Source: Gemmatimonadota bacterium (lineage in GTDB: Bacteria; Gemmatimonadota; Gemmatimonadetes; Longimicrobiales; Gaopeijiaceae). Taken from it: a DNA stretch of 64,000 bases. Of the stretch, positions 5,218-52,114 are shown one piece after another; positions within the stretch are counted from its first letter, which is position 1; every line of letters begins with the position of its first letter. The translations under genes were made by a program, and so were the position numbers. The DNA is taken from the NCBI GenBank assembly GCA_022822325.1, contig JAJEBW010000018.1:62001-126000 (forward strand). The letters run 5' to 3'. The notes beneath the pieces were generated by a model. That model was not told the origin of the DNA and ran no database searches. It saw nothing but the letters and a program-made list of their open reading frames with translations.

Positions 5218-5412
5218 TCAGGGGGTTCGCCGCCCCGGAGCCGCATTCCCGGCCGGGGAACGACAAAGGGGGGTGCGCGCGCGCCATCGTCGCGACGGAT
5301 CGTCCCGGGCCGGCCCGCGCAGGGGCCGGGGGGCGGGTGGTCCGCAACCGTGGAACCGGGGGCTGCGCCGCCGCCAGTCCAGCACGGCCCGGTCGAAATC
5401 GTTGCGGTTCAT
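5218..5412 (-). pseudogene. Truncated duplicate start of the permease-prefix-domain gene
   Basis: Begins with the same 16 residues, MNRNDFDRAVLDWRRR, as the intact gene at 5409-6128, including the ATG overlapping an upstream TGA. After residue 16 the similarity stops and the frame reads through dispersed element copy A to a stop at 5218. The resulting 64-residue frame is Arg/Pro-rich and has no domain. I interpret it as the 5' end of a deleted paralogue, or a partial tandem duplication, not a working gene. Confidence 0.65.
5266..5329 (+). repeat. Dispersed GC-hairpin element, copy A
   Basis: G-run plus T and alternating GC ending GCC (5266-5285), a 20-nt spacer (5286-5305, atcgtcgcgacggatcgtcc), then the invariant 24-nt block (5306-5329) that starts CGGGCCGG and ends GGGGCCGG and can fold as CCGGCCC/GGGCCGG. 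The alternating GC tract is one GC unit longer than in the other copies. A truncated gene start (5218-5412, minus) runs directly into it. Confidence 0.85.
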
Positions 5413-6648: not shown

Positions 6649-8025
6649 ATGCGTCAACTTTTCCGTCTTCCGCGAACCCTCGGCCGCCGCAACGATCACG
6701 GCTCCCTCGTCGCCATCGCACCGTCCCGCGCGGCAATTCCTTCTCCAACGCCAACCCCCGGACGCGCCGCCGCTCGCTTCCTCCCGGGCGCCCTGGCCCT
6801 CCTTGCGCTCGCCGCCGCCTGCGATCCCCCGGCTCCGCCCGCGCCCACCATCGCGATCGACAGCGCCGGGGTCCGAATCGTGACCAGCGACCCGATCGGC
6901 TCCACCGCAAGCTGCACCCTCAGCCCCGAGCCCATCTTCTCCATCGGCGACAGCGAGGACGACGACAACCAGTGGTTCAGCAGCGTCCGGGGCGTGGGAA
7001 GGCTCTCCGACGGCTCGGTCGCGGTGGCGGACCGGGCCAGCGCCGAAGTGCGGATCTTCGCCCCCGACGGCAGCCACCTGCTCTCGATGGGCCGCCACGG
7101 CGAGGGCCCCGGCGAGTTTCAGGATCCCTTCGTCCTCTGGGCGCTCCCCGGCGACACCCTCTGGGTGGGCGACTACCGGCCCTGGCGCTACGTCGTCTTC
7201 ACGCGCGAGGGCGAGTGGGTCCGCAATGTGGCGCTGGATCCGATGTATCCCAATCCGTCGCGGGGCGGCGGCGTCCTCGACAATGGCGTTTCGGTGAATG
7301 CGCTGGACAAGAGCGCCCGCGCCCGCGATTTTGCGGCGCGCGACACCCTGGTCGTGGAGGCGCACGACCGCGACGGCCGGCGAATCGGGGTGCTCGCCCG
7401 GTTGCCGGCCCGCACCATGGGACGCGCCACCGACACCGACGCCTACAACTACTACATCAGCCCCTACTTCGACTCCCGCGCGGAGGTCGACGCCCGCGAG
7501 CGCGCGATCGCCCTGGCCCACACCTCGACCGCCGAGGTGCGTTTGTTCGACGAGGAGTTCCGGCTACGCTCGATCGTCCGCTGGGAGGTGCCGAACCAGG
7601 AGGTCACCGCCGCCGATCTGCGCACCTGGCGCGAGGAGTACGTCATCCGGCGGAACACGGGGTCGAATGTCTGGGACGACGACTTCGATGGGCCGATGAT
7701 CAGCTCCCAGCGCCCCGTCGCCGATGTCATGCCGGTCCTCTCGAGCGTTCTGGTGGGACGCGATGGGCGGCTGTGGGTCCGTCCCTACCGCAGACCGGGC
7801 GGAGATGCGACCCGGTGGATGGCCTTTGCCCGCGAGGGCGAGTTCCTCTGCCACCTGGAGCGGCTGCCGCCCGGATCGAACTTCGATGTCTGGGAGTTCG
7901 GCGCCGACTACGCGCTGGGGCTCCGGACCTCCGACCTGGGCGTCGAGACGGTGTTGGTGCACGCGCTGCACGGGCCGGGGGAGGGGGACGGCGAGGCCAA
8001 CGCGGCGGAGGGAGAATCCCGGTGA
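6649..8025 (+). CDS. Six-bladed beta-propeller lipoprotein
   Basis: A secreted lipoprotein of 458 residues. The N-terminus has an Arg-rich stretch, a hydrophobic core (FLPGALALLALAAAC) and a lipobox ending at Cys, then a Pro-rich linker. The body carries NHL/6-bladed-propeller-type repeats: SDGSVAVADRASAEVRIFAPDGSHL, MGRHGEGPGEF, and a later SSVLVGRDGRLWVRPYRR and FAREGEFL. Such proteins are common in Gemmatimonadota; the ligand is unknown. The ATG at 6649 follows GAGAGG by about seven bases; an in-frame ATG at 6634 is weaker. It is divergent from padR and may be its target. Confidence 0.8.
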   Translation: MRQLFRLPRTLGRRNDHGSLVAIAPSRAAIPSPTPTPGRAAARFLPGALALLALAAACDPPAPPAPTIAIDSAGVRIVTSDPIGSTASCTLSPEPIFSIGDSEDDDNQWFSSVRGVGRLSDGSVAVADRASAEVRIFAPDGSHLLSMGRHGEGPGEFQDPFVLWALPGDTLWVGDYRPWRYVVFTREGEWVRNVALDPMYPNPSRGGGVLDNGVSVNALDKSARARDFAARDTLVVEAHDRDGRRIGVLARLPARTMGRATDTDAYNYYISPYFDSRAEVDARERAIALAHTSTAEVRLFDEEFRLRSIVRWEVPNQEVTAADLRTWREEYVIRRNTGSNVWDDDFDGPMISSQRPVADVMPVLSSVLVGRDGRLWVRPYRRPGGDATRWMAFAREGEFLCHLERLPPGSNFDVWEFGADYALGLRTSDLGVETVLVHALHGPGEGDGEANAAEGESR

Positions 8026-8266: not shown

Positions 8267-8330
8267 TGGGGAATTATCGGCATCTGCAGGACCGTCGTCT
8301 GCAGGATCGGTAGCGGAGGCATACGGACCC

Positions 8331-8395
8331 CCGGCCCCTGCGCGGGCCGGCCCGGGCGGTCGCCGGACGAAAAGGGCGCGCGCGCACCCCCCCCC
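8331..8395 (-). repeat. Dispersed GC-hairpin element, copy B (inverted)
   Basis: Same architecture as copy A on the minus strand: 24-nt hairpin block at 8331-8354, a 20-nt spacer at 8355-8374 (minus-strand reading cttttcgtccggcgaccgcc), alternating GC at 8375-8386, then a C9 run (8387-8395). It lies in the gap between the lipoprotein gene and the gpmI 3' end, directly after the PIN stub. Confidence 0.85.
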
Positions 8396-14718: not shown

Positions 14719-15309
14719 TCAGGTGAAGTAGGGGTTGTCCCCGCTGGCGTGGTCGGTCACGTCGTGAATCGCGGTCACCTCGGGGACGGCCTGCGAGACC
14801 ATCCGTTCGACCCCCTGGCGCAGCGTCATGCGCGACATGGCGCACCCCTGGCACCCGCCCGCCATCTCGATGTAGATTTCGGTCCCCTGCACATCCACCA
14901 GATTGATCGACCCGCCGTGCGACGCGATCGCCGGATTGATCTCGGTGTTCAGCACATGGGTCACGCGCTCGGCCAGTTCGCCGTCCGGTCCGGCCTCGCC
15001 CATCGCCGCCCTGACCGCGTCGGGGTTCGGCGTGATCTGGAAGCCGCTTTCCTGGATCGTCTCGACGAAATCCACCCGGGCCCCGTCCAGCCGCTCCACG
15101 CTTCCCTCGTCGACGAGCACCGTGAAGGCGCCCGCATCGACCTCCAGATCCGACGGCGCGCGCGCCTCGGCCTCGACCAGGGTCAGCTCGTAGTTCGGGG
15201 CGAAGGGACTGCCCTCCACCGCGATCCTGAGCGCCTGGGGACCCTCCTCCTCCATGTCCATGAACGACGCGACCATCTCGCGTGCGCGATCGGTGAATGT
15301 CAGCTTCAT
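14719..15309 (-). CDS. nfuA: NfuA-type Fe-S cluster carrier
   Basis: A 196-residue Fe-S cluster delivery protein. The N-terminal half is an A-type-carrier-like domain (MKLTFTDRAREMV, LRIAVEGSPFAPNYELTLVE) that lacks the A-type cysteines, as in NfuA. The C-terminal half is the Nfu domain with NTEINPAIASHGGSINLVDV and GGCQGCAMSRMTL, whose C-x-x-C binds the cluster at a dimer interface. It is in the same orientation as pyrC and sbcC. The 236 bp upstream of it contain a triplicated ATCCATCGCCC motif. Confidence 0.9.
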   Translation of the reverse strand: MKLTFTDRAREMVASFMDMEEEGPQALRIAVEGSPFAPNYELTLVEAEARAPSDLEVDAGAFTVLVDEGSVERLDGARVDFVETIQESGFQITPNPDAVRAAMGEAGPDGELAERVTHVLNTEINPAIASHGGSINLVDVQGTEIYIEMAGGCQGCAMSRMTLRQGVERMVSQAVPEVTAIHDVTDHASGDNPYFT

Positions 15310-15365
15310 CGGGAATGTCTCTTGCGGGTTTGATCAGGCCGATCGACGGCGAAGGTCCGGGGCGA

Positions 15366-18799: not shown

Positions 18800-20074
18800 T
18801 CATCGGTCCGCTCCCCCGCGCAACGCCCGCATCGCCCGCTCCGCCCGAATCGAGAGTTCGGTCACCCGGAAGTCCGGTCCTCCCTCGTCGCCCGCACCCC
18901 CCAGCGCCTCGCGAAAGAGCGCCAGGACGGTCTCCACCGGCGCCTTGGTCGCGCGCCCGGTCGCCGCAGTCTCGCGCCATTCGGCAAAGAGCTCGTCCAT
19001 GGGGGGCTCGCCGTCCTCCTCGTCGTCGCCGCCGCCGATCGGCTTCACCCGCCGGTTCCTGACGTCGTTGACCAGATTGAAGATGACGCACGCCGGCGCC
19101 CGCTCGGCCACCTGTTCGGCCAGATCGGGAATCGGGTCGTCGGACTTCACCGTCGCTTTCAGGAAATAGCCGCCCGCTTCGCCCTCCGCGGTCCGTTTTT
19201 CCCATTCGTCCAGCCTGGCTTCGAGCTTCTCCAGCGTCCCCTCGAAATCGACCAGCGGCCGCCCCGGGGGAAGTTCGCGCTTGCGCACCTGCACATCGTT
19301 GCCGACCTCCACGACGACCGCGTGTTTGCGCTCGCCCACCTCGCCGAAGTCGAGCGGAATCAGCGATCCCGAGTAGCGCCCGGAAACGTTGCCCGGCAAC
19401 CGCTGCGGCTTGTGAATGTGCCCGAAGGCGCAGTAGAGGGCGCGTTGGAGGCCGGTCGTGTGGGTGGCGTGGTCCCTGCCCACCGTGAAGCGTCGTTCCG
19501 AAGCGCCGGCCCTGGCCCCGTCCACATGCAGATGCGCCGCATGGAAGACGAATCCGTTGGGCCCCGCGGACTGCCGCGCCACCCTGATCACCTGGTCGTT
19601 CACCGACCGGATGCCGTCCGCGTAGTCGCCCTCGAAGCGCGCTGCGTCGCCGGTGGCGTAGTCGCTGATCGCGCCGGGAGGAATGAAGGGAACGCAGGCC
19701 AGCGCCGCCCGCAATCCCCCGCTCGCCGGAAACTCCAGAACGCGCGGCCGGGCGACGAACCAGAGCCGCCGGGGAGACGCGACGGACGCCATCCGGTCGA
19801 GCACATCGAAAAGCGCCACGGAATCGTGGTTGCCGCGAACGACGACGGTGGGCGCGATGGCCGCGAGCCGTTGCAGCGCGGTGACGCCGAGCTGCAGGGC
19901 GGGGTAGGGGGGGCGCGCGGCGTCGAAGAGGTCGCCCGCATGGACGATCAGATCGGGCCGCTCGGACCCGGCGATGGCGAGAAGGGCCCGGAGCGCGGTT
20001 TGGTGGTCCTCGGAGCGGTCGTGCCGGCCGAGCCTGGCGCCCAGGTGCCAGTCGGCGGTATGGAGGAGTTTCAT
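18800..20074 (-). CDS. sbcD: Exonuclease SbcD subunit (Mre11-like)
   Basis: A 424-residue metallophosphoesterase, the nuclease of the SbcCD complex. Motifs: MKLLHTADWHLGARL, LIVHAGDLFD, VVVRGNHDS, FHAAHLHVDG and CAFGHIHKPQ, which supply the Mn ligands. The start at 20074 is chosen because MKLLHTADWH is the canonical N-terminus; a second ATG at 20095 is in frame and sits in a duplicated TCATGGGTGGA (20071, 20092). The frame remains open upstream through dispersed element copy C (20112-20276). First gene of an sbcD-sbcC pair. Confidence 0.94.
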   Translation of the reverse strand: MKLLHTADWHLGARLGRHDRSEDHQTALRALLAIAGSERPDLIVHAGDLFDAARPPYPALQLGVTALQRLAAIAPTVVVRGNHDSVALFDVLDRMASVASPRRLWFVARPRVLEFPASGGLRAALACVPFIPPGAISDYATGDAARFEGDYADGIRSVNDQVIRVARQSAGPNGFVFHAAHLHVDGARAGASERRFTVGRDHATHTTGLQRALYCAFGHIHKPQRLPGNVSGRYSGSLIPLDFGEVGERKHAVVVEVGNDVQVRKRELPPGRPLVDFEGTLEKLEARLDEWEKRTAEGEAGGYFLKATVKSDDPIPDLAEQVAERAPACVIFNLVNDVRNRRVKPIGGGDDEEDGEPPMDELFAEWRETAATGRATKAPVETVLALFREALGGAGDEGGPDFRVTELSIRAERAMRALRGGADR

Positions 20075-20111
20075 GGGTGGACACAGTACGGTCATGGGTG
20101 GATCGGTACAA

Positions 20112-20276
20112 CAACAGGGGGGTGCGCGCGCGCCATGACCACGCGGGGGCCATCCGGGCCGGCCCGCGCAGGGGCCGGGAGCAGGCGCCGGGGCTCGGCG
20201 CGAGGCCGGAGGGTCGGGCCGGTCGTTCGGCGGCCTGCCTTGCGGCCCGCGGACGATCCATGGGCGCCCGGGGGGG
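20112..20276 (+). repeat. Dispersed GC-hairpin element, copy C (long form, left flank of NACHT module)
   Basis: Core: CAACAG then G-run, T, alternating GC (to 20134), spacer 20135-20154 (atgaccacgcgggggccatc), invariant 24-nt block 20155-20178. Unlike copies A, B and E, similarity to copy D extends about 100 bp further right, to the CCATGGGCGCCCGGGGG end at about 20276. A direct repeat of copy D, about 5.8 kb away, with the same spacer. Confidence 0.9.
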
Positions 20277-20332
20277 GGGGGAGACACTCGGTTGGGGATG
20301 GGTCCACGGCCTTGCAGCCACCTGGTCGCGCC

Positions 20333-20352
20333 ATTGAGTATTTTCACTCAAT
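20333..20352. promoter_or_regulatory. Perfect palindrome upstream of the AAA/DUF4143 ATPase gene
   Basis: ATTGAGT-attttc-ACTCAAT, a 7-bp perfect inverted repeat in an AT-rich patch 15 bp before the ATG at 20368. Its position suits an operator overlapping the promoter or transcript start; autoregulation is inferred. Confidence 0.6.
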
Positions 20353-20367
20353 GATTATCTTGGCTAC

Positions 20368-21669
20368 ATGCCTGCCTACCACCGCCCCCATGTCCAACGT
20401 CTGGTCACCCTCCTTGCGGAGGAACGGCGACGCCGATTGATCGCCATCACCGGCCCGCGCCAGACCGGCAAGACGACGATCGCCCGGCAAGCGCTCGCGG
20501 CACTCGCGTCATCCGGAATCGCCTGGCGATATGTGGCGGTGGACGCGCCTCCGCGCACGGGTCCGGAATTGCAGCCCGGCGACACCCATTCGTGGCCCGA
20601 GTTTGGGGGCCCATCGGGCACGGACGGCAGCACCTTTCGTGGTCAGCGCGATACGCGCTGGCTGGTTGGAATATGGGAACAGGCGCGTTACGCCGCCGAA
20701 CGCTCTCCCCGCGGAGCCGTCCTGGTGCTGGACGAGATCCAGGACATCCCCGACTGGTCCCGAACGGTGAAGGGGCTCTGGGACCAGGACCAGGCGACCG
20801 GTTGTCCACTCCGCGTCGTCGTCATGGGATCCGCGCCGCTCCAGTTGCTGGTCGGCCTGGGCGAGCGGTTGGTCGGCAGGTTTCTGCCCTTTCCCGTCAG
20901 GCACTGGTCCCTGGCGGAGATGGTGCGCGCATTCGATTGCAGCATGGACCAATACCTGTTCTTTGGCGGGTACCCGGCGGGAGCGGAACGGTGGGACGAC
21001 GAGGACGATTGGCGAAGCTACATCAAGGATGGAATCGTCCAACGCAACGTCGAGCGGGACATTCTCTCCCTGACCCGGGTGGACAAGCCCGCGCTCCTTT
21101 CCAGCCTGCTTGAACTGGGCTCCCTCTATTCAGGGCAGATCCTCTCCTACAACAAAATGGTGGGGCAACTCCAGGACGCCGGCAACACGACGACGCTGGC
21201 ACGCTACCTTGCGCTCCTGAGTGGCGCGGGATTGCTCGCAGGACTCGGCAAGTACAGTTCGAAAGCCCACCGTCGACGCGCTTCCAGCCCCAAGCTCAAC
21301 GTGCTCAATACGGCACTCATGACGGCTTCGTCAGGGTATACGTTCGAGGAAGCGAAGGCCGACCGCTCGTTCTGGGGCCGGATCGTTGAGAGCGCGGTGG
21401 GCGCCCATCTCCACAATACCCTCGCACCGGGAGCCAGACTCAGTTACTGGCGCTACAACGGTCTGGAAGTGGATTTCGTGCTCGCACGCGGGCCGCGTTT
21501 GACGGCGATCGAGGTGAAGACCGGTGTTTCGCCTGGCAGGTTGAGCGGATTGAAGGAATTTGGGAGTCGTTTCAAGCCCACCCGTTCGATGGTCGTGGGC
21601 ACCGGAGGCGTGGCGCTGCACGAGTTCCTTTCGGAGCCCGCCAGCTTCTGGCTGGAGAAGGAGGGATGA
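20368..21669 (+). CDS. AAA ATPase with C-terminal DUF4143 domain
   Basis: A 433-residue predicted ATPase. Walker A GPRQTGKTT is at residues 29-37, the Walker B VLVLDEIQDI has Asp122-Glu123, and a sensor-like VVVMGSAPLQLL follows. The C-terminal DUF4143 region ends in WRYNGLEVDFVL and AIEVKTG (Asp369, Glu382, Lys384), a PD-(D/E)XK-like arrangement. The family is widespread in mobile and accessory regions; its biochemical role is poorly defined. Its TGA overlaps the ATG of the NACHT gene (ATGA), so the two products are made together, which suggests they cooperate. A perfect palindrome lies just upstream. Codon use is less GC-biased than in flanking core genes, consistent with transfer. Confidence 0.88.
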   Translation: MPAYHRPHVQRLVTLLAEERRRRLIAITGPRQTGKTTIARQALAALASSGIAWRYVAVDAPPRTGPELQPGDTHSWPEFGGPSGTDGSTFRGQRDTRWLVGIWEQARYAAERSPRGAVLVLDEIQDIPDWSRTVKGLWDQDQATGCPLRVVVMGSAPLQLLVGLGERLVGRFLPFPVRHWSLAEMVRAFDCSMDQYLFFGGYPAGAERWDDEDDWRSYIKDGIVQRNVERDILSLTRVDKPALLSSLLELGSLYSGQILSYNKMVGQLQDAGNTTTLARYLALLSGAGLLAGLGKYSSKAHRRRASSPKLNVLNTALMTASSGYTFEEAKADRSFWGRIVESAVGAHLHNTLAPGARLSYWRYNGLEVDFVLARGPRLTAIEVKTGVSPGRLSGLKEFGSRFKPTRSMVVGTGGVALHEFLSEPASFWLEKEG

Positions 21670-24600
21670 CACCGCTTTGCGTGCCGCGGCGGGTTCACGA
21701 GGTGAGCCTTGATCCGGGCCCGTCCGCGGAACCCAACGCAGCCTCGTCCGCGGAGGCGAGTTGGTTGGCGGACTACCGCGACGCGCCGGCGTACGTGCTG
21801 CTCGGCGAGCCCGGAGCGGGCAAGACAACGGCGTTCGAGATGGAATGCGATGCCGATTCGGATGGCAACGAGCCGGTTGGCGTCAGGGACTTTGCGGAGA
21901 TGGAGGTAGGGAGCCATCCAGAGTGGCGAGGGAAGACTCTCTTTATCGACGGGCTCGACGAGATGCGAACGGCATCCGGCAACTGGCGTGGACCGCTTGA
22001 CTCGATCAGGAGACGTTTGGAGCGTCTCGGTCACCCGCGTTTTCGTCTCTCGTGCAGGGCTGGCGAGTGGTTGGGCGAGGACGATGCCGCTGCCCTCAAA
22101 CGGCTTGGCGCGTACCGTGAATTGGTCGTGCTCCGATTGGATCCCCTTAATGAAGACGAAATCCGCACTCTTCTGAAACACCGCGTTGGGCCAGCTCGGG
22201 CCAGCGAGCTCATCAATTACGCGCGCGAGCATGGCCTATACGGGGTTCTTCAGCACCCGCTCAATGTCGAGTTGCTGTTGGAGGTCGGAATGGACACCGA
22301 CCGGATCTCCGGGAGCCGGGGCTTGTTCGAATCGGCCTGCATGTCGATGACCCGGGAGCGGAATCCAGCGCACCGCGCCGCAACGCGGGGGGCGTCTCGT
22401 CCCTCCGGGGCGTCGTTGCTGAGTGCGAGCGGCCGCATCTGTGCCCTGAGCCTCCTGACCGATACTCTCGGATGGGCGGTTGATCCGGCTGAAGCGACCC
22501 TTGGTTATCCGTCGATTCGCGAAATCGGGAATGCGGATTCCGGTGTAGCCGTCGAGGAGTTGGACGGCGCGCTCCGTACCCGGCTTTTCAGGCTTGCCGC
22601 GTCCTGCCGTTTCGAACCGATTCATCGACAGGTCGCAGAGTTTCTCGGGGGCCGGTTCCTGGGCGGGCTGGTGGAAAGCCGCGTGGTCTCGGCCCTCCGG
22701 ATGCGCGCGCTCATGGCGGGCGGCGACGGCGCACCCGCGCCATCGCTGCGTGGTCTCGCGGCGTGGATCGCGGTCCATAGCCCAAGATCTCGCCCTTCCC
22801 TGATCCGTGACGATCCGCTTGGCGTGGCCAGCTACGGCGATCCTTCGGAGTTCCCTCTACAGGATCAGCGGCAGCTGGTGTCCAACCTTCGCGACCGCGC
22901 CCACCAGATCGACATCTGGGAGTGGCCGACGGCCGCCCTTCCATCGCTGGCCACGCCCGGAGCCCTTCCGATCGTGCGGGAACTGGTCTCCTGCCCGGAG
23001 CGTGACGACGCCACGCAATCACTCGCGTATCTGGCGATGCGCGCCATCGCTCAGACGGACGGTTCGGTCATTCCGCGATATCTTCGGACTCCATTGCTGG
23101 GCGTGGTACGTGACACGCGCTGGTGGCCTGGTACACGGGCCGCCGCCCTGAAGGCGTGGATCGCGAGCGATTCGGCTGAAAGACGCCACGTCGACGAAGC
23201 CCTGAAGCTCCTGAAGGAGATCGCGGACGACGTATTGGATGACCCGAGGGGAAGCCTGACCGGGCTGCTGCTCGGCCTATTGTATCCAGAGCACGTCACG
23301 CCAGATGAGCTCTGGGATTATGCGCAGCCGGTCGCACCCAATCCCATCGGCAGCGGACACTCGGAGTTCTGGCTGTACGAGCTTCCGCGACGTTCCGAAG
23401 AAGGGGGCCTGCTGGCGGAGGTTCTCGACAGCCTGTGCCAATGGCTGGACGGTCGGCCGCGTGGCATTGACGACCACTGCACTCGCGACGGGATTGCGAA
23501 GATGTTCGCTCGCGCCCTGGAACGGCACGGTGACGACATCGAAACCGGGCGGTTGTACACCTGGCTCAGGGTGGCCCTGCCCTGGATGTCGAACAAGAGC
23601 GATCTCGAACTGTCAAGTCTGGTTCGGCGTCGTCTTGGTGTGGACACGCCGGATGAGGACATCAGGGCGAAGACCGCCGCCTGGCTCAGAGAACGGCCAT
23701 CGACCCAGAAGGCGCTGATGCTGGAAATCGTTCGCCGCCTGGACGACGATGAAATCACCGTGCCGGCGGACCCTGTCTCGCCCACAGGCTCGCTGACCCT
23801 GGACGATGTACTCGCCGGTGCCCCAACCGCCGACTTCGCGCCCTGGTTCCTGGAACTAGCCGTATCGCTGTCGGAATCCCGTCCGTGGCTCGCGTGCCAC
23901 ATGTTGCGCCGGACCGGCATTGGTGCACGCACGTTGGCGGAACTCCTCGACGCTCGCCGCAACCCGTGGGAGAAGAAAGCGGACTCCGCTGCTCCAGAGG
24001 CCCCGCCGAAGGCCAACAGCCTCACCCTTGACGAGGTCCGCGCTCGAGTTTCCGGGCACCCACCGCTCGAAGAATGCCTTGAATCGCTGTTGGCGCCGGT
24101 CCCGCGGCCGAACCCGGGGCATCCCCTTGTCCTGAAGCGGGAGCGCCAGCGGCAGGAATGGATCGAATGGGTGCGGGAGCAGGCCGGCGCGCTGCGGTGC
24201 GGTGAAGGTCCGCCAAGGACGTACCAGGATGTGGCGAGTGCCTATCTGGCAGTCAACAAGTCGGTGCGCGGCGACGCTCCCGAGGAGCGAGTCCGCAGTC
24301 TCTTCCTTGGCGACGAGGAGTTGTCGCGCGTCGCGCTGGACGGCCTCCGGCGGGTGGCTCGTCGCACCGATCTCCCAACTCTGGACGATCTGGTCCGGCT
24401 CGACGAGGAAGGGAAAGTCTCCTATTTCGTCCTTCCGCTGCTAGCTGCCCTTGAGGAAGAAGAACGGATGGCCAACGCGGACCGCGCGCGCCTGGAGGGA
24501 GACGCGTTGCAACGTGCGCTCGGCTCTCTTCTGCTGGCCAGGGACAGGGACTACGACGCGACCCATCCGGCATGGTATGCACGGGCGCTAGGATCCAGTC

Positions 24601-25907
24601 CCGAAGCAGTAGCCGACGCGTTCGTCAGGGTGTACCGGTCGCGCATCCGCCGGTCCTCGGACGTGGACGGGCATTTGCGTGCCTTGACTCGTGCCGAATC
24701 GCATGCGGAAGTGGCTCGGTCGGCTCTGCCGCGACTGTTGAGGTCGTTTCCCGCCAAGGCGACGGTCGACCAGGTTTTCTTTCTGAACCATCTGATTCCG
24801 GCGGCTTTGGAGCATGTAGACCGGGACGAGTTGGCGTCGATCGTTCATCGGAAGCTCGAACTGGTCAGCCTGCGAATCGGGCACCGCGTACGATGGTTGG
24901 TCACCGGAATGTTGCTTGGCGAACCGCAGGCAGAGGAACGGCTAGACCACTTCCTTTCCGACGGTTCGGACGCCCGCGTGCGCGAGTTCGCGGACTTTCT
25001 CAAGGTGCGCAAGGTTGCGGAGCGAATCAGATCGCTACCGGTCCGGTCGTTGGCGATGATTGTCAGGAGGCTCGGCGGATACTTCGCTCCAGCTCTTGGC
25101 GGAGTTCCGGGCCACATGTCTCAAGAGATGGACGAAGCGCTTCAAACCGACGGCCTGATCCGCACGGCTCTGGACGCTCTTTCGTTCCACCCCACCCCGG
25201 AGGCCACCCAACTCATCAAGTCCCTGCTTGATGATGAGGATCTTGCCAAGTGGCGGGAGCCGGTCACCGAGGCGCTCGACGCCCAAAGGGTCGTCCGGCT
25301 GGACGCGGAATTCGAGCCGCCGACGATCCGGGATGTAGTGAGCGTTCTGAAGGGGGACAGGCCGGCTGGCGCAGCGGATCTCGCCGCGCTGACGGTGGAC
25401 AGAATCCTGGAGATCGGCGAGCGGGTGCGGGACGTTGATGCCGATCTGTGGCGGCACTTCTGGAACGAGGGAAAACACGGAAAGGATGAGAAACCCAAGA
25501 TCGAACCCTCCTGCCAGCAGGCGCTCCTTGCCGCATTGCGCGCTGAACTTCCAGAACGCGTGCGGTTGGATTCGGAGGCAAGGTACGCGGGCGGCGGACG
25601 CGCCGACTTGCGGGTCTCCTTCCGTGACTTCGCCGTGCCGGTCGAGACGAAGATGAGCTCGAGCCGCGACTTGTGGACAGGCGTTGCCGATCAGTTGATC
25701 CCCCGATATACCCGCGACCCGAGATCGGGCGGCTACGGCATCTACGTCGTGTTCTGGCACGGCCCGAAACATGCGAAACGCCCAACCCCGACGGGAAGGC
25801 CGCCGCCAACGCCGGACGAGCTAAAGGATCGCCTGACTCGACAATTGACGACCGAAGCTCAACGGCAAAAAGTCTCGGTGATCGTTCTGGACGTAAGCCC
25901 GCCATGA
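21666..25907 (+). CDS. NACHT-type NTPase with C-terminal PD-(D/E)XK nuclease-like domain
   Basis: A 1413-residue STAND-like protein. After a short N-terminus, Walker A GEPGAGKTT is at residues 47-55 and the Walker B TLFIDGLDEM at 91-100 has the NACHT-type D-G-x-D-E. A winged-helix-like and long helical-repeat region (about 200-1250) follows, as in STAND sensors. Near the end Glu1304 (SEARY), Asp1314 (GRADLRV) and Glu1327-Thr-Lys1329 (VPVETKM), followed by LWTGVADQLIPRY, match the restriction-endonuclease fold. Bacterial NACHT and Avs proteins are known antiphage sensors; a defence role here is inferred. In Avs proteins the effector is N-terminal, whereas here the nuclease-like part is C-terminal. 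Coupled by ATGA to the ATPase; dispersed copy D starts 28 bp after its stop. Confidence 0.85.
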   Translation: MTPLCVPRRVHEVSLDPGPSAEPNAASSAEASWLADYRDAPAYVLLGEPGAGKTTAFEMECDADSDGNEPVGVRDFAEMEVGSHPEWRGKTLFIDGLDEMRTASGNWRGPLDSIRRRLERLGHPRFRLSCRAGEWLGEDDAAALKRLGAYRELVVLRLDPLNEDEIRTLLKHRVGPARASELINYAREHGLYGVLQHPLNVELLLEVGMDTDRISGSRGLFESACMSMTRERNPAHRAATRGASRPSGASLLSASGRICALSLLTDTLGWAVDPAEATLGYPSIREIGNADSGVAVEELDGALRTRLFRLAASCRFEPIHRQVAEFLGGRFLGGLVESRVVSALRMRALMAGGDGAPAPSLRGLAAWIAVHSPRSRPSLIRDDPLGVASYGDPSEFPLQDQRQLVSNLRDRAHQIDIWEWPTAALPSLATPGALPIVRELVSCPERDDATQSLAYLAMRAIAQTDGSVIPRYLRTPLLGVVRDTRWWPGTRAAALKAWIASDSAERRHVDEALKLLKEIADDVLDDPRGSLTGLLLGLLYPEHVTPDELWDYAQPVAPNPIGSGHSEFWLYELPRRSEEGGLLAEVLDSLCQWLDGRPRGIDDHCTRDGIAKMFARALERHGDDIETGRLYTWLRVALPWMSNKSDLELSSLVRRRLGVDTPDEDIRAKTAAWLRERPSTQKALMLEIVRRLDDDEITVPADPVSPTGSLTLDDVLAGAPTADFAPWFLELAVSLSESRPWLACHMLRRTGIGARTLAELLDARRNPWEKKADSAAPEAPPKANSLTLDEVRARVSGHPPLEECLESLLAPVPRPNPGHPLVLKRERQRQEWIEWVREQAGALRCGEGPPRTYQDVASAYLAVNKSVRGDAPEERVRSLFLGDEELSRVALDGLRRVARRTDLPTLDDLVRLDEEGKVSYFVLPLLAALEEEERMANADRARLEGDALQRALGSLLLARDRDYDATHPAWYARALGSSPEAVADAFVRVYRSRIRRSSDVDGHLRALTRAESHAEVARSALPRLLRSFPAKATVDQVFFLNHLIPAALEHVDRDELASIVHRKLELVSLRIGHRVRWLVTGMLLGEPQAEERLDHFLSDGSDARVREFADFLKVRKVAERIRSLPVRSLAMIVRRLGGYFAPALGGVPGHMSQEMDEALQTDGLIRTALDALSFHPTPEATQLIKSLLDDEDLAKWREPVTEALDAQRVVRLDAEFEPPTIRDVVSVLKGDRPAGAADLAALTVDRILEIGERVRDVDADLWRHFWNEGKHGKDEKPKIEPSCQQALLAALRAELPERVRLDSEARYAGGGRADLRVSFRDFAVPVETKMSSSRDLWTGVADQLIPRYTRDPRSGGYGIYVVFWHGPKHAKRPTPTGRPPPTPDELKDRLTRQLTTEAQRQKVSVIVLDVSPP

Positions 25908-25935
25908 ACGGTGTGCGAGGCGCTCGTACGATCAT

Positions 25936-26099
25936 CAACAGGGGGGTTGCGCGCGCGCCATGACCACGCGGGGGCCATCCGGGCCGGCCCGCGCAGGGGC
26001 CGGGGTCGAAGCCTGGGGCTCGGCGCGAAGCAGGAGGGTCGGGCCGGTAGTTCGGCGGTCTGCCTCGCCGCCCGCGGACGATCCATGGGCGCCCGGGGG
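25936..26099 (+). repeat. Dispersed GC-hairpin element, copy D (long form, right flank of NACHT module)
   Basis: Direct repeat of copy C: same CAACAG start, an extra T after the G-run, the same 20-nt spacer (25960-25979), the invariant block 25980-26003, and the same right-hand extension ending CCATGGGCGCCCGGGGG, with scattered substitutions between about 26004 and 26070. Confidence 0.9.
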
Positions 26100-26130
26100 A
26101 ATGACCCATCTCATAGGTTGAATTCGTTGT

Positions 26131-26173
26131 CATTCATGAAAATCCGCAATCAGACCTCTGATTTTCATGAATG
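26131..26173. repeat. Perfect 14-bp inverted repeat, orphan operator or hairpin
   Basis: CATTCATGAAAATC (26131-26144) is matched exactly by GATTTTCATGAATG (26160-26173), with an inner AATCAG-acct-CTGATT pair. It is AT-rich within GC-rich DNA and lies 31 bp after copy D, as the 20333 palindrome follows copy C. The next gene starts 200 bp away; bases 26174-26377 hold no gene I recognise. It may be the operator of a deleted gene. Confidence 0.8.
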
Positions 26174-26377
26174 GCGTCATGCGGACGGGCAAAGCGAGTG
26201 TGGATCCCCCCACGGAAGCCCCCGGCGCGCAGCCTGCGCCGCAGCCGGAGGCCCGGATCCGGCGATTTGCGGCGAGAAGGGGGAAAGCACTACTATACTT
26301 TGCTACCGGAGACTCCCTTCGCGTTTGCAGGAGTCGGCCACCCACCCGTTTGACCGAAAGACAGGAGAGCCTCCGAC

Positions 26378-26647
26378 ATGACCAGCTCGTTGCTCGTTGA
26401 GGAGCGAAGGTTTCTGCGGGAGAACCAGGCCGCGCTTCGCAGGAAGCACCCCGGCAAGTACCTGCTCGTCAAGGGGACCGCCGTGCACGGCGCCTACGAG
26501 ACTCGGGACGAAGCCATCACAGCGGGGGTCCGAATGTTCCCGGAACCTGGCGCGGCCTTCCTGGTTCGCTCAGTGGAGGATGTGGACGATCCCGTGGTCA
26601 GCAACCCCGCGCTGTCGATAGGAGTTCCATTCACATGCCCCACATGA
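26378..26647 (+). CDS. Small DUF5678-like protein
   Basis: An 89-residue protein. The segment HPGKYLLVKGTAVHGAYETR then DEAITAGVRMF resembles DUF5678, a small alpha/beta domain (pattern G-K-Y-v-x-v-x-x-g-x-V-x-G, then a helix). The function of the family is unknown to me. An AGGAG-type site about ten bases upstream supports the ATG at 26378. It overlaps the next gene by 13 bp and is probably co-expressed with it. Confidence 0.65.
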   Translation: MTSSLLVEERRFLRENQAALRRKHPGKYLLVKGTAVHGAYETRDEAITAGVRMFPEPGAAFLVRSVEDVDDPVVSNPALSIGVPFTCPT

Positions 26648-27096
26648 CGGTCCGGATTCACGACAAGTCGTGTCAATCGCTCCCTCGGATGTTGCAGAAC
26701 AGAGGTCCAATTGTTCCGGTATCCATTTCCATCGGGGACCAGCAGCGAGTCGCACTGGTAGCTGCCGGTCGTGAGGCTCCGGCGCCAGTAACGGGACTTG
26801 CGCTGATCGACACGGGTGCCACGCTCACCTGCATCGGAACCCAGGCGGCCCAACAAGCAGGATTGCCCACGGTTGGAACGGGCAGCATGATGTCGGCTAC
26901 CCAGGCGTCCGTCCAGGTGCCGATGTATGCGGCAAAGATTGACATTCAGGGTTTTGTGGCGATCAACACGGCACAGGCGTACGGATCCCCCGCATTGGAC
27001 GGCCAGGGGATTATCGCATTGATCGGTAGAGATGTCTTGTCAAAGTGCATCCTCAACTATAATGGTCCCGAGGCCACGTTTACATTGTCGATTTAG
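26635..27096 (+). CDS. Retropepsin-like aspartic protease
   Basis: A 153-residue single-domain aspartic protease of the retropepsin type. ALIDTGATLTCI places the catalytic Asp59-Thr-Gly-Ala, and the later IIALIGRDVLSKC is the conserved hydrophobic-G-R-D segment of this fold. Such bacterial proteins are expected to work as dimers with one catalytic Asp each. No signal peptide or membrane segment is seen, so it is probably cytoplasmic. It overlaps the upstream DUF5678-like gene by 13 bp; from memory such pairs recur, but the substrate is unknown. The ATG at 26644 is an alternative start. Convergent with the radical SAM gene. Confidence 0.75.
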   Translation: MPHMTVRIHDKSCQSLPRMLQNRGPIVPVSISIGDQQRVALVAAGREAPAPVTGLALIDTGATLTCIGTQAAQQAGLPTVGTGSMMSATQASVQVPMYAAKIDIQGFVAINTAQAYGSPALDGQGIIALIGRDVLSKCILNYNGPEATFTLSI

Positions 27097-27182
27097 CCGA
27101 TGGCGAGGATGGCGTCGAGCCGCGGCGCGCATGGTCCGGAACACTCGCCGATCCCCGGGCGGGCTTTGACCTCCGCTGTAAT

Positions 27183-28148
27183 TCAGAATGGTGGATTGAA
27201 ACCGTCCTTGCCCTCGCCGAGCCGGCATCCTGCGCGCTCAAGACGCTGCCGGATCACATGCTCCGCCTGGTTGTAGTGATCCCGGTAGCGGGGCATGACC
27301 TGACCGCGGCCGCGTCGCAGCTTCTCGGCCACGATCGCGAGTGCGTCATCCCTGGTCCCCGCCACAAACTTGCCCCGCTGGAAGTGGAATGGCTGGATGA
27401 TGAACTTCTCCACGCCGGTCGCCAGCAGGCTGGCCGCGAACTCTTTGGCATCGCGCACAAGGAGCAAGGGCGTCATCGTAATGCAGCTCTGGATGCCCTC
27501 TTCGACCAGTTGGCGGGCCGCGGCGAGGCGCCGGGCGTTGCTCGGGCACGACGGCTCGAAGGCCTTGCGCACATCCTCGTCGTCGGTGGTGACGGTCAGG
27601 TTGACCTGGACGCGGCCGCCATTGGCCTCGATCTCCCGGAACAGATCCGCATCGCGAACCACATCGGGGCTGCGGGTCTGGACGACGAGCTTGGGCCGGT
27701 GCCGCCGCGCGAGGATCTCAAGAAGTTGCCGGGTCAGCTTCAGCTTGCGCTCGATCGGCTGGTACGGGTCGGTGACGCTGCTCATGTAGATGAGGGTGCC
27801 GTCCAGGCGCTTGCGGCGCTTCTCCAGGAGACGGACCGCGTTCTCCTTGACCTGGACCCACCGCCCCCAACGGTCGCGCCGCTCGGCCCCGGTCATCGAG
27901 CCGGACGCGCGGGAGAAGAAGGCGGCGTAGCAATATGTGCAGCCGAAGGCGCAGCCGGAGTAGGGGTTCAGGGTGAAGTCATATTCTTCCATGAAACCGG
28001 TCGCCTTGGTGAGGATGGCGCCAGCGGGCCTGTATTCGATTGCAGCGCGGCCGAGGCGGGTGGGGCGGGGGGGCGGGTCGGAGGTGGGGTCCGGAGGTTC
28101 GGATGACACGGATTCTCCGAAGAGGGTGAGTTGGCGCGGATTGGTCAT
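27183..28148 (-). CDS. Spore-photoproduct-lyase-family radical SAM protein
   Basis: A 321-residue radical SAM enzyme. The cluster motif is in NPYSGCAFGCTYCYAAF (C-x-x-x-C-x-x-C), preceded by ILTKATGFMEEYDFTLNPY and followed by IYMSSVTDPYQPIERKLKLTR, all typical of the SPL/PA0069-type family. The reaction is not known; spore photoproduct lyase repairs a thymine lesion, but most relatives in non-spore-formers are uncharacterised. Its ATG overlaps the stop of the upstream methyltransferase-like gene by four bases (ATGA), so it is the last gene of the run nurA-herA-methyltransferase-like-radical SAM. Confidence 0.88.
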   Translation of the reverse strand: MTNPRQLTLFGESVSSEPPDPTSDPPPRPTRLGRAAIEYRPAGAILTKATGFMEEYDFTLNPYSGCAFGCTYCYAAFFSRASGSMTGAERRDRWGRWVQVKENAVRLLEKRRKRLDGTLIYMSSVTDPYQPIERKLKLTRQLLEILARRHRPKLVVQTRSPDVVRDADLFREIEANGGRVQVNLTVTTDDEDVRKAFEPSCPSNARRLAAARQLVEEGIQSCITMTPLLLVRDAKEFAASLLATGVEKFIIQPFHFQRGKFVAGTRDDALAIVAEKLRRGRGQVMPRYRDHYNQAEHVIRQRLERAGCRLGEGKDGFNPPF

Positions 28149-29785
28149 CGGAAGGTCCCCCGGAAACGCACTTCATCGTCAAAGATGGGATTTCTGCGCA
28201 GATCCCATTCGACCAGACTATTGAGGTCGCGGTCAGCGCGAGAGTTGATCCATTCAGGCCACTCGCGTGACATCCGAATCGCAAGCTTCTTGCGCCATCC
28301 TGTTGTGTGGACAAGACGGCCCCGAATCGCCGGCTGCACCCTCTCGGGTACAAATCGGCGAGCCGATTGTTCCCCTGCAATGGGGCGCAATACTCTATCC
28401 AGGGATTCAGCCTTGGTTTCGTCGGCCGTTACCAACACGGCATCAGGAATCAGTGCTTCGGTGGCCTGGTGCAGATCCCGTGAAAGGTGGTAGGCTGCAT
28501 GAATCGAAGTCAGCCAGCGATCACCCCTGACCATCCGGGATGTCCTGAGAGAATCGAGGCACTGGGCAAGGGAATCGTAGGTACGGCACTCTGGTGACAT
28601 GGCTACAATGCGTTCCTGCAAGCTTCGTAGCATCTTTGCATCCGGTGAATCAGCTTGCACCTTGACAAGTTGGTTCTGCAAACGCTTGGAGAAGTCCTGC
28701 CACAGCCTTAAACCAATGTCCTTCATGGGCGACGAGGTATCGATGCCGTGTACGAAGACCTTCGTCTTTGGGCTACACCCCTCGGACGCAAACAACGCCA
28801 AAGCAATCTGTACGGCGCGAGCCCCGCATCCCAAGTCGAATACATGTAAGTAAGGCGGGTGTCCTCCCGCGGAGCCACCGAACCCGTAATCAAACAGTTG
28901 CCCCTGCTGGGGGTCTCGCCTTTGGTCCGCAACTCGGCCAGCGGCCCCGCTCCCGCGAAGCACTGATCTCAGAAACGAATATATCAGATTGATCTGCCGT
29001 GGCTGATACCAAGTAAGGTAGAAGAGTGCCGCCCATTCGTCGTGATACTTCCCCAACGGTTCAACACTGGTATCGACGCGATTGGCCACTTCGGATGGGG
29101 TCAACCCAGCGGATAGTCGGCGGTATTCCCGTGCTGCTACGGCGGCGATCGCTTTATCCAGTAGCGACCAAGGGAAAACGGGTCGGTCTGGCTTGGGCGA
29201 TCCTCGCGTGTCCACAACAATGACGGATGTCTCTTCTGCGCCCCGTCCCTCGCCAGGCATGCGATGGAAACTGCAATATGATCGATATGCGCAACAACGT
29301 TCCATCGGCGTTTCGCAAGCGTGTCTTCCGACCGCCAACTGGGGACCCCTCTGCAGGGCATCGTCCTGCAAGTCGTACACTTCGATCACTTGGAACACCT
29401 GGCCGCAACCCATACACTCTTCAATTGTGCCAAGCAGAGATGTAGCAGTGAAAATGTCGGGGTTCAATGGTGACTGGAGAAGGTGGTTGTCCTGCGGTCG
29501 GGGACTCTTTGGACGATGCGATCGGACGTATTCCATTACGGCCGCTTCCATCTCCGCGAGACGCTCCATGCCGATGTCCCACTGGTTCGGCCGGAAAACT
29601 ATGTCCGTTTTGAAACAAGCGACTTCCTGTTGGTGCACCTTAAACAATCGCACTCTACCCCGTTCCGTTCCGTCTTGATCCGCCGGATCAAAAATCAGCA
29701 TTCCGGTTTGCCGACCCGCATCAGTGCGGAGTCTCCGCCGCCAGCCGACCCAAACGGATCGGCCATCGTAACGGATTTCCTTCAT
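28145..29785 (-). CDS. Unrecognised methyltransferase-fold protein
   Basis: A 546-residue protein I cannot assign to a family. In the middle, LHVFDLGCGARAVQIALALF then VFVHGIDTSSPM looks like motif I and the acidic end of strand 2 of a class I SAM-binding fold. The N-terminal half has cysteine clusters (EECMGCGQVF and CETPMERCCAYRSYC) that could bind metal. The C-terminal half is charged and has no domain I know. Base composition is visibly AT-richer than its neighbours, a sign of acquisition. It lies 26 bp downstream of herA and is coupled by ATGA to the radical SAM gene; RNA or DNA modification is conceivable but unproven. Confidence 0.6.
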   Translation of the reverse strand: MKEIRYDGRSVWVGWRRRLRTDAGRQTGMLIFDPADQDGTERGRVRLFKVHQQEVACFKTDIVFRPNQWDIGMERLAEMEAAVMEYVRSHRPKSPRPQDNHLLQSPLNPDIFTATSLLGTIEECMGCGQVFQVIEVYDLQDDALQRGPQLAVGRHACETPMERCCAYRSYCSFHRMPGEGRGAEETSVIVVDTRGSPKPDRPVFPWSLLDKAIAAVAAREYRRLSAGLTPSEVANRVDTSVEPLGKYHDEWAALFYLTWYQPRQINLIYSFLRSVLRGSGAAGRVADQRRDPQQGQLFDYGFGGSAGGHPPYLHVFDLGCGARAVQIALALFASEGCSPKTKVFVHGIDTSSPMKDIGLRLWQDFSKRLQNQLVKVQADSPDAKMLRSLQERIVAMSPECRTYDSLAQCLDSLRTSRMVRGDRWLTSIHAAYHLSRDLHQATEALIPDAVLVTADETKAESLDRVLRPIAGEQSARRFVPERVQPAIRGRLVHTTGWRKKLAIRMSREWPEWINSRADRDLNSLVEWDLRRNPIFDDEVRFRGTFR

Positions 29786-29811
29786 ATGAGGCGGCCCCAC
29801 CCCACCCCCCC

Positions 29812-31797
29812 TCACAACCCCGCCCCCGACCCCGACATCGCCCCCAGATTCGCCATGATCGATTCGGTGCGCTCCCGTTCCCGGGCCTCGTCGGCCGCCG
29901 CTTCCTCCGGGTTGGTCGCGAAGGGGGGGAAGGGGAAGCGGAGCGGAATCGGTTCGGGCACAATCGGTTGCGAGAGCACCATCGTGCCCGGCATGAACCT
30001 GGACGCCCGTTCGCGCAGGGATCGCGACAGGAACCGGTAGGCGTCGGCCTCGTTTGCGTCCAGACGGCCGGCCACCTTGAGCGAGGCGTTGCGGGGAAGC
30101 GCCGGGGCCACCGCCGAGGCCGCCTGCTGCGCGCCCACCAGCAGCACGCCCAACGACCGGCCGCGTTCGGCGATGTCCACCAGCAACTCCTTCAATGGCG
30201 AGAACCCCTTCGACGGCGCGTACTTGTTGAGCTCGTCGAGGACCACGAACCGAAGCGGCATTCGTCCCGTTCCCTGCTTTTCGCGCCACACCCGGTCCAG
30301 AAGCGAGCCGACCACGAAGCGCTGGGCGTCGTCGTGCAGCGTCGAAATGTCCACGACATGCAGCCTTGCGTTCTCGGCCGACACGGGCGTGAGACCGCAG
30401 CCGATCAGCGGGCCGATGTGCTTGCGCAGCCGCAGGAGCCGTCGCACATAGGCCTGGCGGGTGCCGGAGGTCGTGCGTCCGAACCACAGCTTGAGCGCCT
30501 GTTCGTCGTCGCGGTTGGCCATCTGTTCGGTGAAATCGACGAAATCGCCGAAATCGGTCATCGGATGTCCGGCGCCCGCCGGGACCGCCTCGGGTTCCCT
30601 GGCCGCCAGCCGTTCCGGGTCGTAGGTGATCTTCTCGTCCACGGTGGGAAGGATGACGACGGCCCCCGATTCGCCCCCCTCCAGCCGCCGCAGATGGCGC
30701 AGAAGCTGAATGCGGAACTGCTGCTCGATGAAGCCGATCTGGGTCTTGCGGTCGTCTTCGGCGGTGAAGCAGAACTGGAGGAGCTCATCGCGGATGAACT
30801 GTTCAGGGGTCCAGCCGTAGGCGTGCACGTCGGCGGTGTCGCGGGACTTGACGCCGGGCACCGAGCCCGATACGCCGGGACGCCGGGGCGCGTGGAGCCT
30901 GACGGAGCGGAAGGGACCGGGATCGTCGACGCCGAGAGCGCGCCACTGGGCGCGGACGCCGGGCCGGGCCGGGAACTCCGAGTTGGGGCGGTCCAGGTGA
31001 AGCAGATCCTCGCCCTTGGTGTTGAAGACGAGCGCGCGCACATTCTCGCGTTCGGCGCGGCCGCCCAGGAGCGCCATCCCGGCATCGGTCTCCAGAAGCT
31101 GGTAGAGGACGTAGAGCGCGTAGGAGGTCTTGGTCGCCACGCCGGAGATCCCCGAGATCGAGAAGTGCCCGCCCGAGCGGCCATCGACGAAGCGCATGTC
31201 GGCGTAGACGGGATCGCCCCCCATGTCCAGTCCGACGGGGAGCTTGCCCTTCTTCATCTCGTCCTCGAAGAGCGCGGCGGAACGGTCCGGTCCGACGGCC
31301 TTCATTGCCTCGGCGCCCGCGCTCGGGGCCACGAAAAGCTCGGGGACGACGCGCAGCACGCGAACCTCGGCCAGCCGGATGTGTTCGGCGGGCATCGTGC
31401 GGTCCACGACCCGCGCGGTGTCGGAGGGAAGGTCGGCGCCTTCGAAGCGGCTGCGCAGCTCGGTGACGATTCCGTAGTGCGTGACCTGGTTGCCGCCGAC
31501 GGACTCGCCGCCGCTCCCGCTCTCGACTCCACCGCGGCCTCCGCCCCCGCCGGGAAGCTCGGTGCGAACGGCGACGAGTTCGTCGAGTTGCACATGGGCG
31601 CCCGGGTCGAGGACGACCTGGAAGTCGCGCGAGTTGCTGCCCTGCGAGCCGTCGACGAGGCCGATGCGGGGATCGGCGAGCGAACCCTCCGCCGAACCGC
31701 CGCCCGCAGTCTCGTCTGCCCGGCCCGGGTCTTCCGTTCGTTCCTCTTCCGGGTTCCGCGGACGGCCCCCGCCCGGGCTGCTCTCCCGATCGCTCAT
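29812..31797 (-). CDS. herA: HerA-like hexameric helicase (DUF87)
   Basis: A 661-residue FtsK/HerA-superfamily ATPase. The N-terminus is disordered and acidic, followed by a HAS-barrel-like domain; Walker A is a variant GISGVATKTS around residue 215, and the Walker B region is RFVVLDELNKYAPSKGFSPL, then GVLLVGAQQAASAV as the sensor. HerA works with the nuclease NurA in DNA-end resection and, in bacteria, also in several antiphage systems. A GAGGAG ribosome site for this gene lies inside the last codons of nurA, six bases away, so the pair is an operon. The next gene follows after 26 bp. Confidence 0.87.
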   Translation of the reverse strand: MSDRESSPGGGRPRNPEEERTEDPGRADETAGGGSAEGSLADPRIGLVDGSQGSNSRDFQVVLDPGAHVQLDELVAVRTELPGGGGGRGGVESGSGGESVGGNQVTHYGIVTELRSRFEGADLPSDTARVVDRTMPAEHIRLAEVRVLRVVPELFVAPSAGAEAMKAVGPDRSAALFEDEMKKGKLPVGLDMGGDPVYADMRFVDGRSGGHFSISGISGVATKTSYALYVLYQLLETDAGMALLGGRAERENVRALVFNTKGEDLLHLDRPNSEFPARPGVRAQWRALGVDDPGPFRSVRLHAPRRPGVSGSVPGVKSRDTADVHAYGWTPEQFIRDELLQFCFTAEDDRKTQIGFIEQQFRIQLLRHLRRLEGGESGAVVILPTVDEKITYDPERLAAREPEAVPAGAGHPMTDFGDFVDFTEQMANRDDEQALKLWFGRTTSGTRQAYVRRLLRLRKHIGPLIGCGLTPVSAENARLHVVDISTLHDDAQRFVVGSLLDRVWREKQGTGRMPLRFVVLDELNKYAPSKGFSPLKELLVDIAERGRSLGVLLVGAQQAASAVAPALPRNASLKVAGRLDANEADAYRFLSRSLRERASRFMPGTMVLSQPIVPEPIPLRFPFPPFATNPEEAAADEARERERTESIMANLGAMSGSGAGL

Positions 31798-52043: not shown

Positions 52044-52052
52044 GAAAACGAA

Positions 52053-52114
52053 GGGGGTTGCGCGCGCACCCTTGCCGCGCCGCCGCCATCCGGGCCGGCC
52101 CGCGCAGGGGCCGG
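52053..52114 (+). repeat. Dispersed GC-hairpin element, copy E
   Basis: G5-TT-alternating GC with one A substitution (to 52070), spacer 52071-52090 (cttgccgcgccgccgccatc), invariant 24-nt block 52091-52114. Bases 52115-52336, up to the peptidase gene, hold no gene; CCCGATCGGG is a 10-bp palindrome within them. Confidence 0.85.

Follow-up and report, generated by a model that had tools for sequence, protein, structure and literature searches.

A mobile two-gene NACHT-like operon in a Gemmatimonadota genome, predicted to act in defence, and the direct repeats that bracket it

The 64,000-nucleotide stretch analysed here (the window: forward-strand positions 62,001 to 126,000 of contig JAJEBW010000018.1, assembly GCA_022822325.1, from a Gemmatimonadota bacterium) contains two coupled genes, coding for an AAA_14-DUF4143 ATPase and a NACHT-like protein, which are bracketed by two direct repeats of 166 bp. 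We consider it probable that these two genes form a defence operon that is complete in itself and spreads horizontally, and that its repeats record an insertion event instead of serving as a device dedicated to excision or insertion. As judged from the comparisons below, the cassette is mobile, yet its movement is independent of the two-box element that forms the first part of each repeat; because this element has expanded only in the source genome and brackets no other close copy, it is not a general vehicle. The operon would consist of its own promoter with an operator-like palindrome, the DUF4143-type ATPase gene and the gene for an EruA-related NACHT nuclease, ending at the stop codon, and would have landed in a variable site between herA and sbcD in the source lineage. 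The repeats, composed of the genome-specific element and neighbouring sequence, most likely stem from host DNA that became duplicated at operon insertion or shortly thereafter. The source genome (G000, an assembly that is 94% complete) was compared with 22 congeners, the other G numbers, with one genome per species and all assemblies being drafts; L numbers denote sequence loci and C46 a contig of G000.

Gene products, pairing and promoter

The ATPase gene (20368..21669, + strand, 433 aa) is assigned through family matches to PDC-S01, a PADLOC candidate defence class of AAA_14-DUF4143 proteins. The protein matches model PDLC04791 over almost its full length (residues 4-428 to 2-393 of 395, E 8.1e-141), an assignment that consists of the full-length model match, PADLOC's own thresholds not being applied. 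We take its C-terminal EVDFVL...IEVK stretch to resemble a PD-(D/E)XK signature. The ATPase open reading frame (ORF) overlaps that of the NACHT-like protein (21666..25907, + strand, 1413 aa) by ATGA, and the GC content at third codon positions is 0.77 and 0.73 in the two genes compared with 0.86-0.88 in sbcC, sbcD and herA; the original prediction had described the bracketed genes as coupled and as less GC-biased than their neighbours, and both descriptions stand.

By profile match and motifs, the second product appears to be a relative of EruA (NF058535, a NACHT domain-containing antiphage protein) that is not to be filed as EruA itself. Homology to this NCBIfam profile is full-length (residues 30-1411 to positions 14-1318 of 1318, E 5.5e-221). 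The protein carries GEPGAGKT at residues 47-54 and LFIDGLDE at 92-99, with key residues invariant in 16 of 16 aligned rows, which we take to be the Walker A and DGLDE-type Walker B motifs of a NACHT NTPase. Its long middle region shows weak HEAT-repeat matches in some relatives, and the C-terminal domain (25245..25904, + strand), recognized by motifs, alignment and an aligned model, is predicted to adopt the restriction-endonuclease fold of PD-(D/E)XK type with conserved D, E and K; D1314, E1327, K1329 and Q1343 are invariant among the aligned relatives. A single-sequence model of the C-terminus was poor (predicted local distance difference test, pLDDT, 42) and was replaced by the alignment-based model, and a sequence-based search of solved structures gave no match. 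We hypothesize that the NACHT-like protein senses infection via its large middle region and uses ATP to oligomerize, activating the C-terminal nuclease, while the ATPase would be a regulator or a further subunit that acts on DNA, and the palindrome described below would be where one or the other protein represses the operon.

Bacterial NACHT and Avs proteins, antiphage members of the STAND (signal transduction ATPases with numerous domains) class, combine a P-loop NTPase with a nuclease-like effector. The window protein likewise contains a P-loop NTPase with a DGLDE-type Walker B motif and a nuclease-like effector, but differs in its C-terminal nuclease-like domain, its two-gene operon and the lack of any PADLOC match at E 0.1. 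For HyoA (NF058534), the best-matching stretch is the C-terminal ~245 residues of the NACHT-like protein, which scores 110 bits against a cut-off of 1200. Plasmid and phage relatives are distant (28 plasmid records and one phage record, all below 60% identity, and one viral contig at 33%); whereas the window relative of EruA is operonic with a DUF4143 ATPase, the two distant homologues inspected among the plasmid records, from Vibrio and Bradyrhizobium, have no annotated adjacent ATPase of this kind. Antiphage proteins named EruA and HyoA were not found by name among the papers listed, where the top match for EruA concerns an unrelated E. coli regulator and the one for HyoA is unrelated as well, and the search for DUF4143 gave a single match, on Argonaute.

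A GTDB scan with the large, NACHT-like protein returned 306 relatives, of which the best-scoring 80 loci were kept. The ATPase gene lies at most 400 bases upstream of the NACHT-like gene in 75 of 78 of these (two loci being cut at a contig end), a pairing rate that is valid for this branch and not for all EruA relatives. According to record titles, with phylum mapping partly by hand, the kept loci come from Gemmatimonadota, Acidobacteriota, Chloroflexota, Pseudomonadota, Latescibacterota, Binatota, Nitrospirota, Dadabacteria and others. Two of the three unpaired loci (L146, L147 near 7560-7960) belong to a single Dehalococcoidia genome, in which, by eye, each NACHT gene follows a resolvase-like coding sequence instead of the ATPase gene. 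PDC-S01 is, as we read the -S in its name, a single-gene candidate class; here the ATPase gene is nearly always followed by a NACHT nuclease gene. PDC-S01 has been reported to rank fourth in frequency among the defence systems of prokaryotes, most candidates of this type still awaiting experimental validation (PMC12988326). The tie of this branch to a NACHT nuclease provides a concrete partner and a testable mechanism.

The left edge of the cassette is formed by the palindrome CATTGAGTATTTTCACTCAATG (20332..20353, + strand), a likely operator, which is retained with small changes in 11 close copies while the DNA upstream differs. Across phyla, 48 of the 71 loci with enough upstream DNA have TGAG-N6-12-CTCA in the 150 bases that precede the ATPase match, some of the 48 being near-identical relatives; in random windows from the same loci the figure is 25 of 1420. 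The palindrome starts 32-36 bases before the ATPase match in 33 of the 48 loci, and the only TGAG-N6-10-CTCA site in the window is that at 20335. Its retention across phyla suggests that the cassette itself encodes the regulator of the palindrome. A -10-like TATCTT (20356..20361, + strand) lies six bases before the ATG, and the ATPase gene would accordingly be read from a near-leaderless promoter. By eye, several solitary DUF4143 genes at herA/sbcD (L103, L104, L105, L108, L114) have a different palindrome, TCGGATGCG...CTCCGA, in the same place and a near-leaderless start; the sequences suggest that each DUF4143 family branch may have its own operator.

Autoregulation, which the palindrome suggests, is common in toxin-antitoxin operons. 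Together with an EruA match that lies under the equivalog cut-off and a defence role that is predicted from sequence, it would also fit another self-regulating conflict module or a toxin-antitoxin-like module not directed at phages. This is unlikely in our estimate, as both partners match defence families and the site holds further defence-like genes (Fic, Schlafen AlbA and GmrSD-like). The matches to the EruA antiphage family and to PDC-S01 are consistent with the defence cassette that had originally been predicted.

Movement of the cassette within the genus

Relatives of the large protein are present in 19 of the 22 congeners and close ones in 10, with 70-82% identity by segment. The close copies, that of the source genome included, are found in 11 genomes at ten sites, only G011 and G020 having theirs at a common site. 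When flanks of up to 6 kb were compared (some shorter, and without a right flank for G003), similarity among close copies was found to stop just before the palindrome on the upstream side and approximately at the stop codon in the 10 copies with a known end, the exceptions being the G011/G020 site and 13 bases in G014/G022. Four-fold-site identity between G000 and G011 is 78% for the ATPase gene and 67% for the NACHT gene, but 50.5% for herA, 50.3% for sbcD and 51.9% for sbcC. The comparisons with G001 and G004, made for all five genes, point the same way, as do those with G014 (without herA) and with G003 (limited to ATPase, sbcD and sbcC). These silent-site contrasts between genome pairs indicate that cassette and core histories differ, and silent-site identity points to horizontal transfer of the cassette. 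Protein identity forms a mosaic, in which G011/G020 come closest for the ATPase and for parts of the C-terminal half of the large protein, and G022 for residues 1-400 of the latter, with G018 equal in two of four windows.

Several cassette sites, at which gene names were read from sequence, have counterparts in congeners. G018 contains a clean empty form of the G021 site, and in G008 the SDR-like and propeller-like genes are adjacent where G011 and G020 have the cassette. In G001 the cassette has replaced a gene, leaving mtnA-like fragments, while G004 keeps the mtnA-like gene; the empty site for G014 gave right-flank matches only. In G007, ~55 bases of the NACHT 3' end directly adjoin the left flank known from the G012 site; this junction is a deletion scar that contains a few shared bases. 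The ten sites, the empty sites in relatives and the silent-site evidence for transfer bear out the predicted acquired cassette. No tRNA gene marks an insertion site in the window or in 11 of the 12 loci scanned; the sole tRNA among them is a tRNA-Pro in L081, 1.7 kb from a paralogue.

The direct repeats and the two-box element

The left repeat (20109..20274, + strand), which comprises the two-box element and a ~96 bp tail, lies 37 bases upstream of sbcD, a gene of opposite direction, and the right repeat (25933..26099, same strand) begins 25 bases past the NACHT gene stop codon. Their starts are ~5.82 kb apart. Aligned over 168 columns, the repeats differ at 14, of which 3 are gaps (92% identity), with one substitution and one indel in the first 72 columns and none in the last 30. 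The two repeats have exactly the same ~20-nt spacer between their conserved boxes, and the ~96 bp tail past the element is common to only these two copies, both among the 40 best matches and among copies compared genome-wide. The same orientation, the 5.8 kb distance, the shared 20-nt spacer and an extra 100 bp had all been predicted, with coordinates correct within 3 bases. Since spacer and tail are common to the two window copies alone, separate insertions of the element to the left and right of the cassette were ruled out. As regards a composite or unit transposon, the repeats are direct and neither of the two genes encodes a transposase (flanks past the assigned genes were not exhaustively annotated).

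The element, the first ~70 bases of the repeat, consists of GGGGTTGCGCGCGCRCC, a ~20-base spacer and CCGGGCCGGCCCGCGCAGGGGCCGG. It is GC-rich, with a nearly invariant second box, a first-to-second box distance of 21-24 bases and a free spacer sequence. With up to 2 mismatches allowed, the genome contains 73 matches to the 22-nt box and 0 to a reversed control pattern, so the element is not a product of chance. Five copies lie in the window (5267-5330, 8330-8392, 20109-20182, 25933-26007 and 52052-52114). In all 71 copies compared the first box is upstream, and spacers and flanks mostly differ; the reduction from 73 to 71 reflects the merging of copies identical over 40 bases, by which the window pair was fused. 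A 21-base box (at most 2 mismatches) is found 74 times in G000 and 0-3 times in each of the 22 congeners (reversed control there 0-2), and complete two-box copies occur once each in G002, G006, G009, G013 and G015; by these counts, the expansion of the family is private to the source genome. The original proposal that the repeat is the means of movement is not supported: none of the 10 other close copies has the element in the flanks examined, two paralogues in the same genome lack it (one examined on one side only), and the family has expanded in the source genome only.

Beyond the window pair, a long shared tail was found among the 71 copies in one pair, C46:123337/125542, whose repeats of ~525 bp each (L267 1629-2149 and 3834-4354) surround a gene of 406 codons, by appearance one for a beta-propeller lipoprotein. 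Weaker likeness is seen in L255, where inverted copies separated by 75 bases have tails that match over 67 nt at 76%, and between the DNA upstream of copies in L260 and L269 (88 nt at 80%). Same-strand neighbouring pairs less than 10 kb apart number 11 against 6.9 expected (simulated P 0.07), and an excess was likewise found for neighbours on opposite strands (13 against 6.7, P 0.01). Other same-strand pairs were rejected as cassette brackets: C46 is the one pair of 10 others with long homology and a gene.

The element may have a role unrelated to insertion. Of the 26 copies that gene calling placed between genes, 16 have on their 5' side a gene of the same strand, which in 12 cases ends within 63 nt, and the right repeat likewise follows the NACHT stop codon; box B folds to a 7-bp hairpin, and one other element pair is a local duplication. 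Hence, the element might be a terminator-like 3'-end feature, with the right copy serving the operon and the left one being left over from an earlier duplication at the locus or from a gene that has been lost. We find this rather unlikely, as gene calls around the copies are crude and 17 of 43 copies fell within called ORFs, which makes the calls behind the 3'-end reading unreliable, as the four copies folded do not outscore shuffled sequences (z between -0.5 and 0.5), and as it leaves the exact bracketing of a transferred operon by a long duplication unexplained. The same folding result led us to discard the element as a stable RNA, and no Rfam family was found in the window at gathering scores. 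An assignment to repetitive extragenic palindromic (REP) elements with a REP-associated tyrosine transposase (RAYT) was likewise dropped: Y1_Tnp (PF01797) had 0 matches in the 94% complete G000 assembly, and the positive control matched in 5 of 14 genomes. The word GATCCAT recurs in 7 of 73 element tails, which is too weak for use.

The herA/sbcD site and flank duplications

In the window, the variable site (20072-29811) is bordered by sbcD (18800..20071, - strand, family match) and by a gene for a HerA-like ATPase (29812..31797, - strand), which was recognized by PADLOC mad8 and weak HerA matches and has no Pfam match at 0.001. An sbcD orthologue was found in 15 genomes, G000 included; the herA-sbcD gap is 17-40 bp in six of them, 267 bp in G011 and at least 1.2 kb in eight, four of which extend to a contig end. 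Cargo at the site in congeners (L102-L115) includes other DUF4143 ATPases as well as Fic, Schlafen AlbA and GmrSD-like genes. Gap sizes and cargo together mark herA/sbcD as a variable and, by its predicted gene content, defence-like site. Contrary to the prediction that an empty site would keep a single element, the empty herA-sbcD junctions hold none.

Direct duplication of host DNA beside cargo recurs with other sequences at two other places. At the G011/G020 cassette site, the right flank is a decayed, collinear ~0.9 kb copy of the left flank; among the cassette sites compared, long direct flank repeats are confined to this site and the source-genome window. The second place is the 3' end of herA, which is directly duplicated in G003 (215 bp at 93%, 1980 bp between starts; L349 719-933 and 2699-2913) and in G014 (138 bp at 91%, 1605 bp between starts; L273 11376-11513 and 12981-13118). 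By eye, the G003 duplication encloses an ATPase gene of GPNNAGKST type that was read as OLD-like, and that in G014 contains a related, apparently broken stretch; the two duplications may represent one event. We put forward, as a possibility that we hold only tentatively and rate somewhat higher in view of the herA duplications, that a widespread two-component defence system of a DUF4143 ATPase and an EruA-like NACHT nuclease with its own operator moves as a bare promoter-to-stop cassette without its own transposase or integrase, and that this cassette and other hotspot cargo enter by a flank-duplicating route, with direct repeats of 0.14-0.9 kb of local host DNA as its trace. Such a route might be, for example, the single-crossover integration of circles carrying host sequence, at the window, at G011/G020 and at the herA 3' end in G003/G014.

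Once present, the repeats could permit loss by homologous recombination. The stronger proposal, that they are active sites of homologous recombination between which the cassette leaves as a single-repeat circle or is exchanged, draws on the orientation and 92% identity of repeats that enclose exactly one transferred operon, on the gene-enclosing C46 pair, on the cargo between duplicated host DNA at G011/G020 and on the herA duplications around another ATPase gene, which raised our rating of it. It is nevertheless quite unlikely: the element is absent from the other close copies and from the empty junctions, other insertions are clean (G021) or gene-replacing (G001), and the sole cassette loss found, that in G007, is a short-homology scar and not repeat-mediated. 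Moreover, no recombinase is among the genes assigned between sbcD and herA and Y1_Tnp had no match in the genome, other recombinases not having been sought.

The preferred reading, a mobile defence operon with repeats that record its insertion, has to be weighed against several observations. The NACHT-like protein scores 737.1 bits, below the EruA equivalog cut-off of 1000, and no Pfam family matches it at E 0.01, the Pfam NACHT model included; this model is also missing from the matches of 16 relatives at E 0.1. The mode of action of the pair is deduced from its families and its antiphage activity is a prediction. In pairs of congeners that do not include G000, the silent-site identity of the cassette often does not exceed that of core genes, or falls below it: the G001-G011 cassette genes are 58% and 63% identical compared with 68%, 67% and 55% for core genes, and those of G011-G014 62% and 60% compared with 75% for sbcD and 68% for sbcC. 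When left and right flanks (0.8-3 kb) were compared at G014, G021, G004, G001, G022, G012 and G018, no comparable direct repeats emerged, the strongest of the short weak matches being those in G021 (33 nt at 82%, 68 nt at 74%). The duplication may date from insertion or from a later time. The ten sites of insertion, together with empty sites, duplicated flanks and a deletion scar, all within one genus, provide good material on the movement of defence operons without mobility genes.

The remaining cargo of the window site comprises genes for a retropepsin-like aspartyl protease (26635..27096, + strand) and a radical SAM protein (27183..28148, - strand), both identified by family match, and a gene of uncertain start codon whose product has no Pfam, PADLOC or NCBIfam match (28145..29797, - strand). 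Elsewhere, a repeat of ~250 bp (L096, about 15065-15315) has many occurrences across congeners, often at 82-95% identity. To the right of the right repeat and upstream of the retropepsin gene, an inverted repeat, CATTCATGAAAATC...GATTTTCATGAATGG, was seen by eye at 26109-26170, and is a possible candidate for the operator of another cassette.
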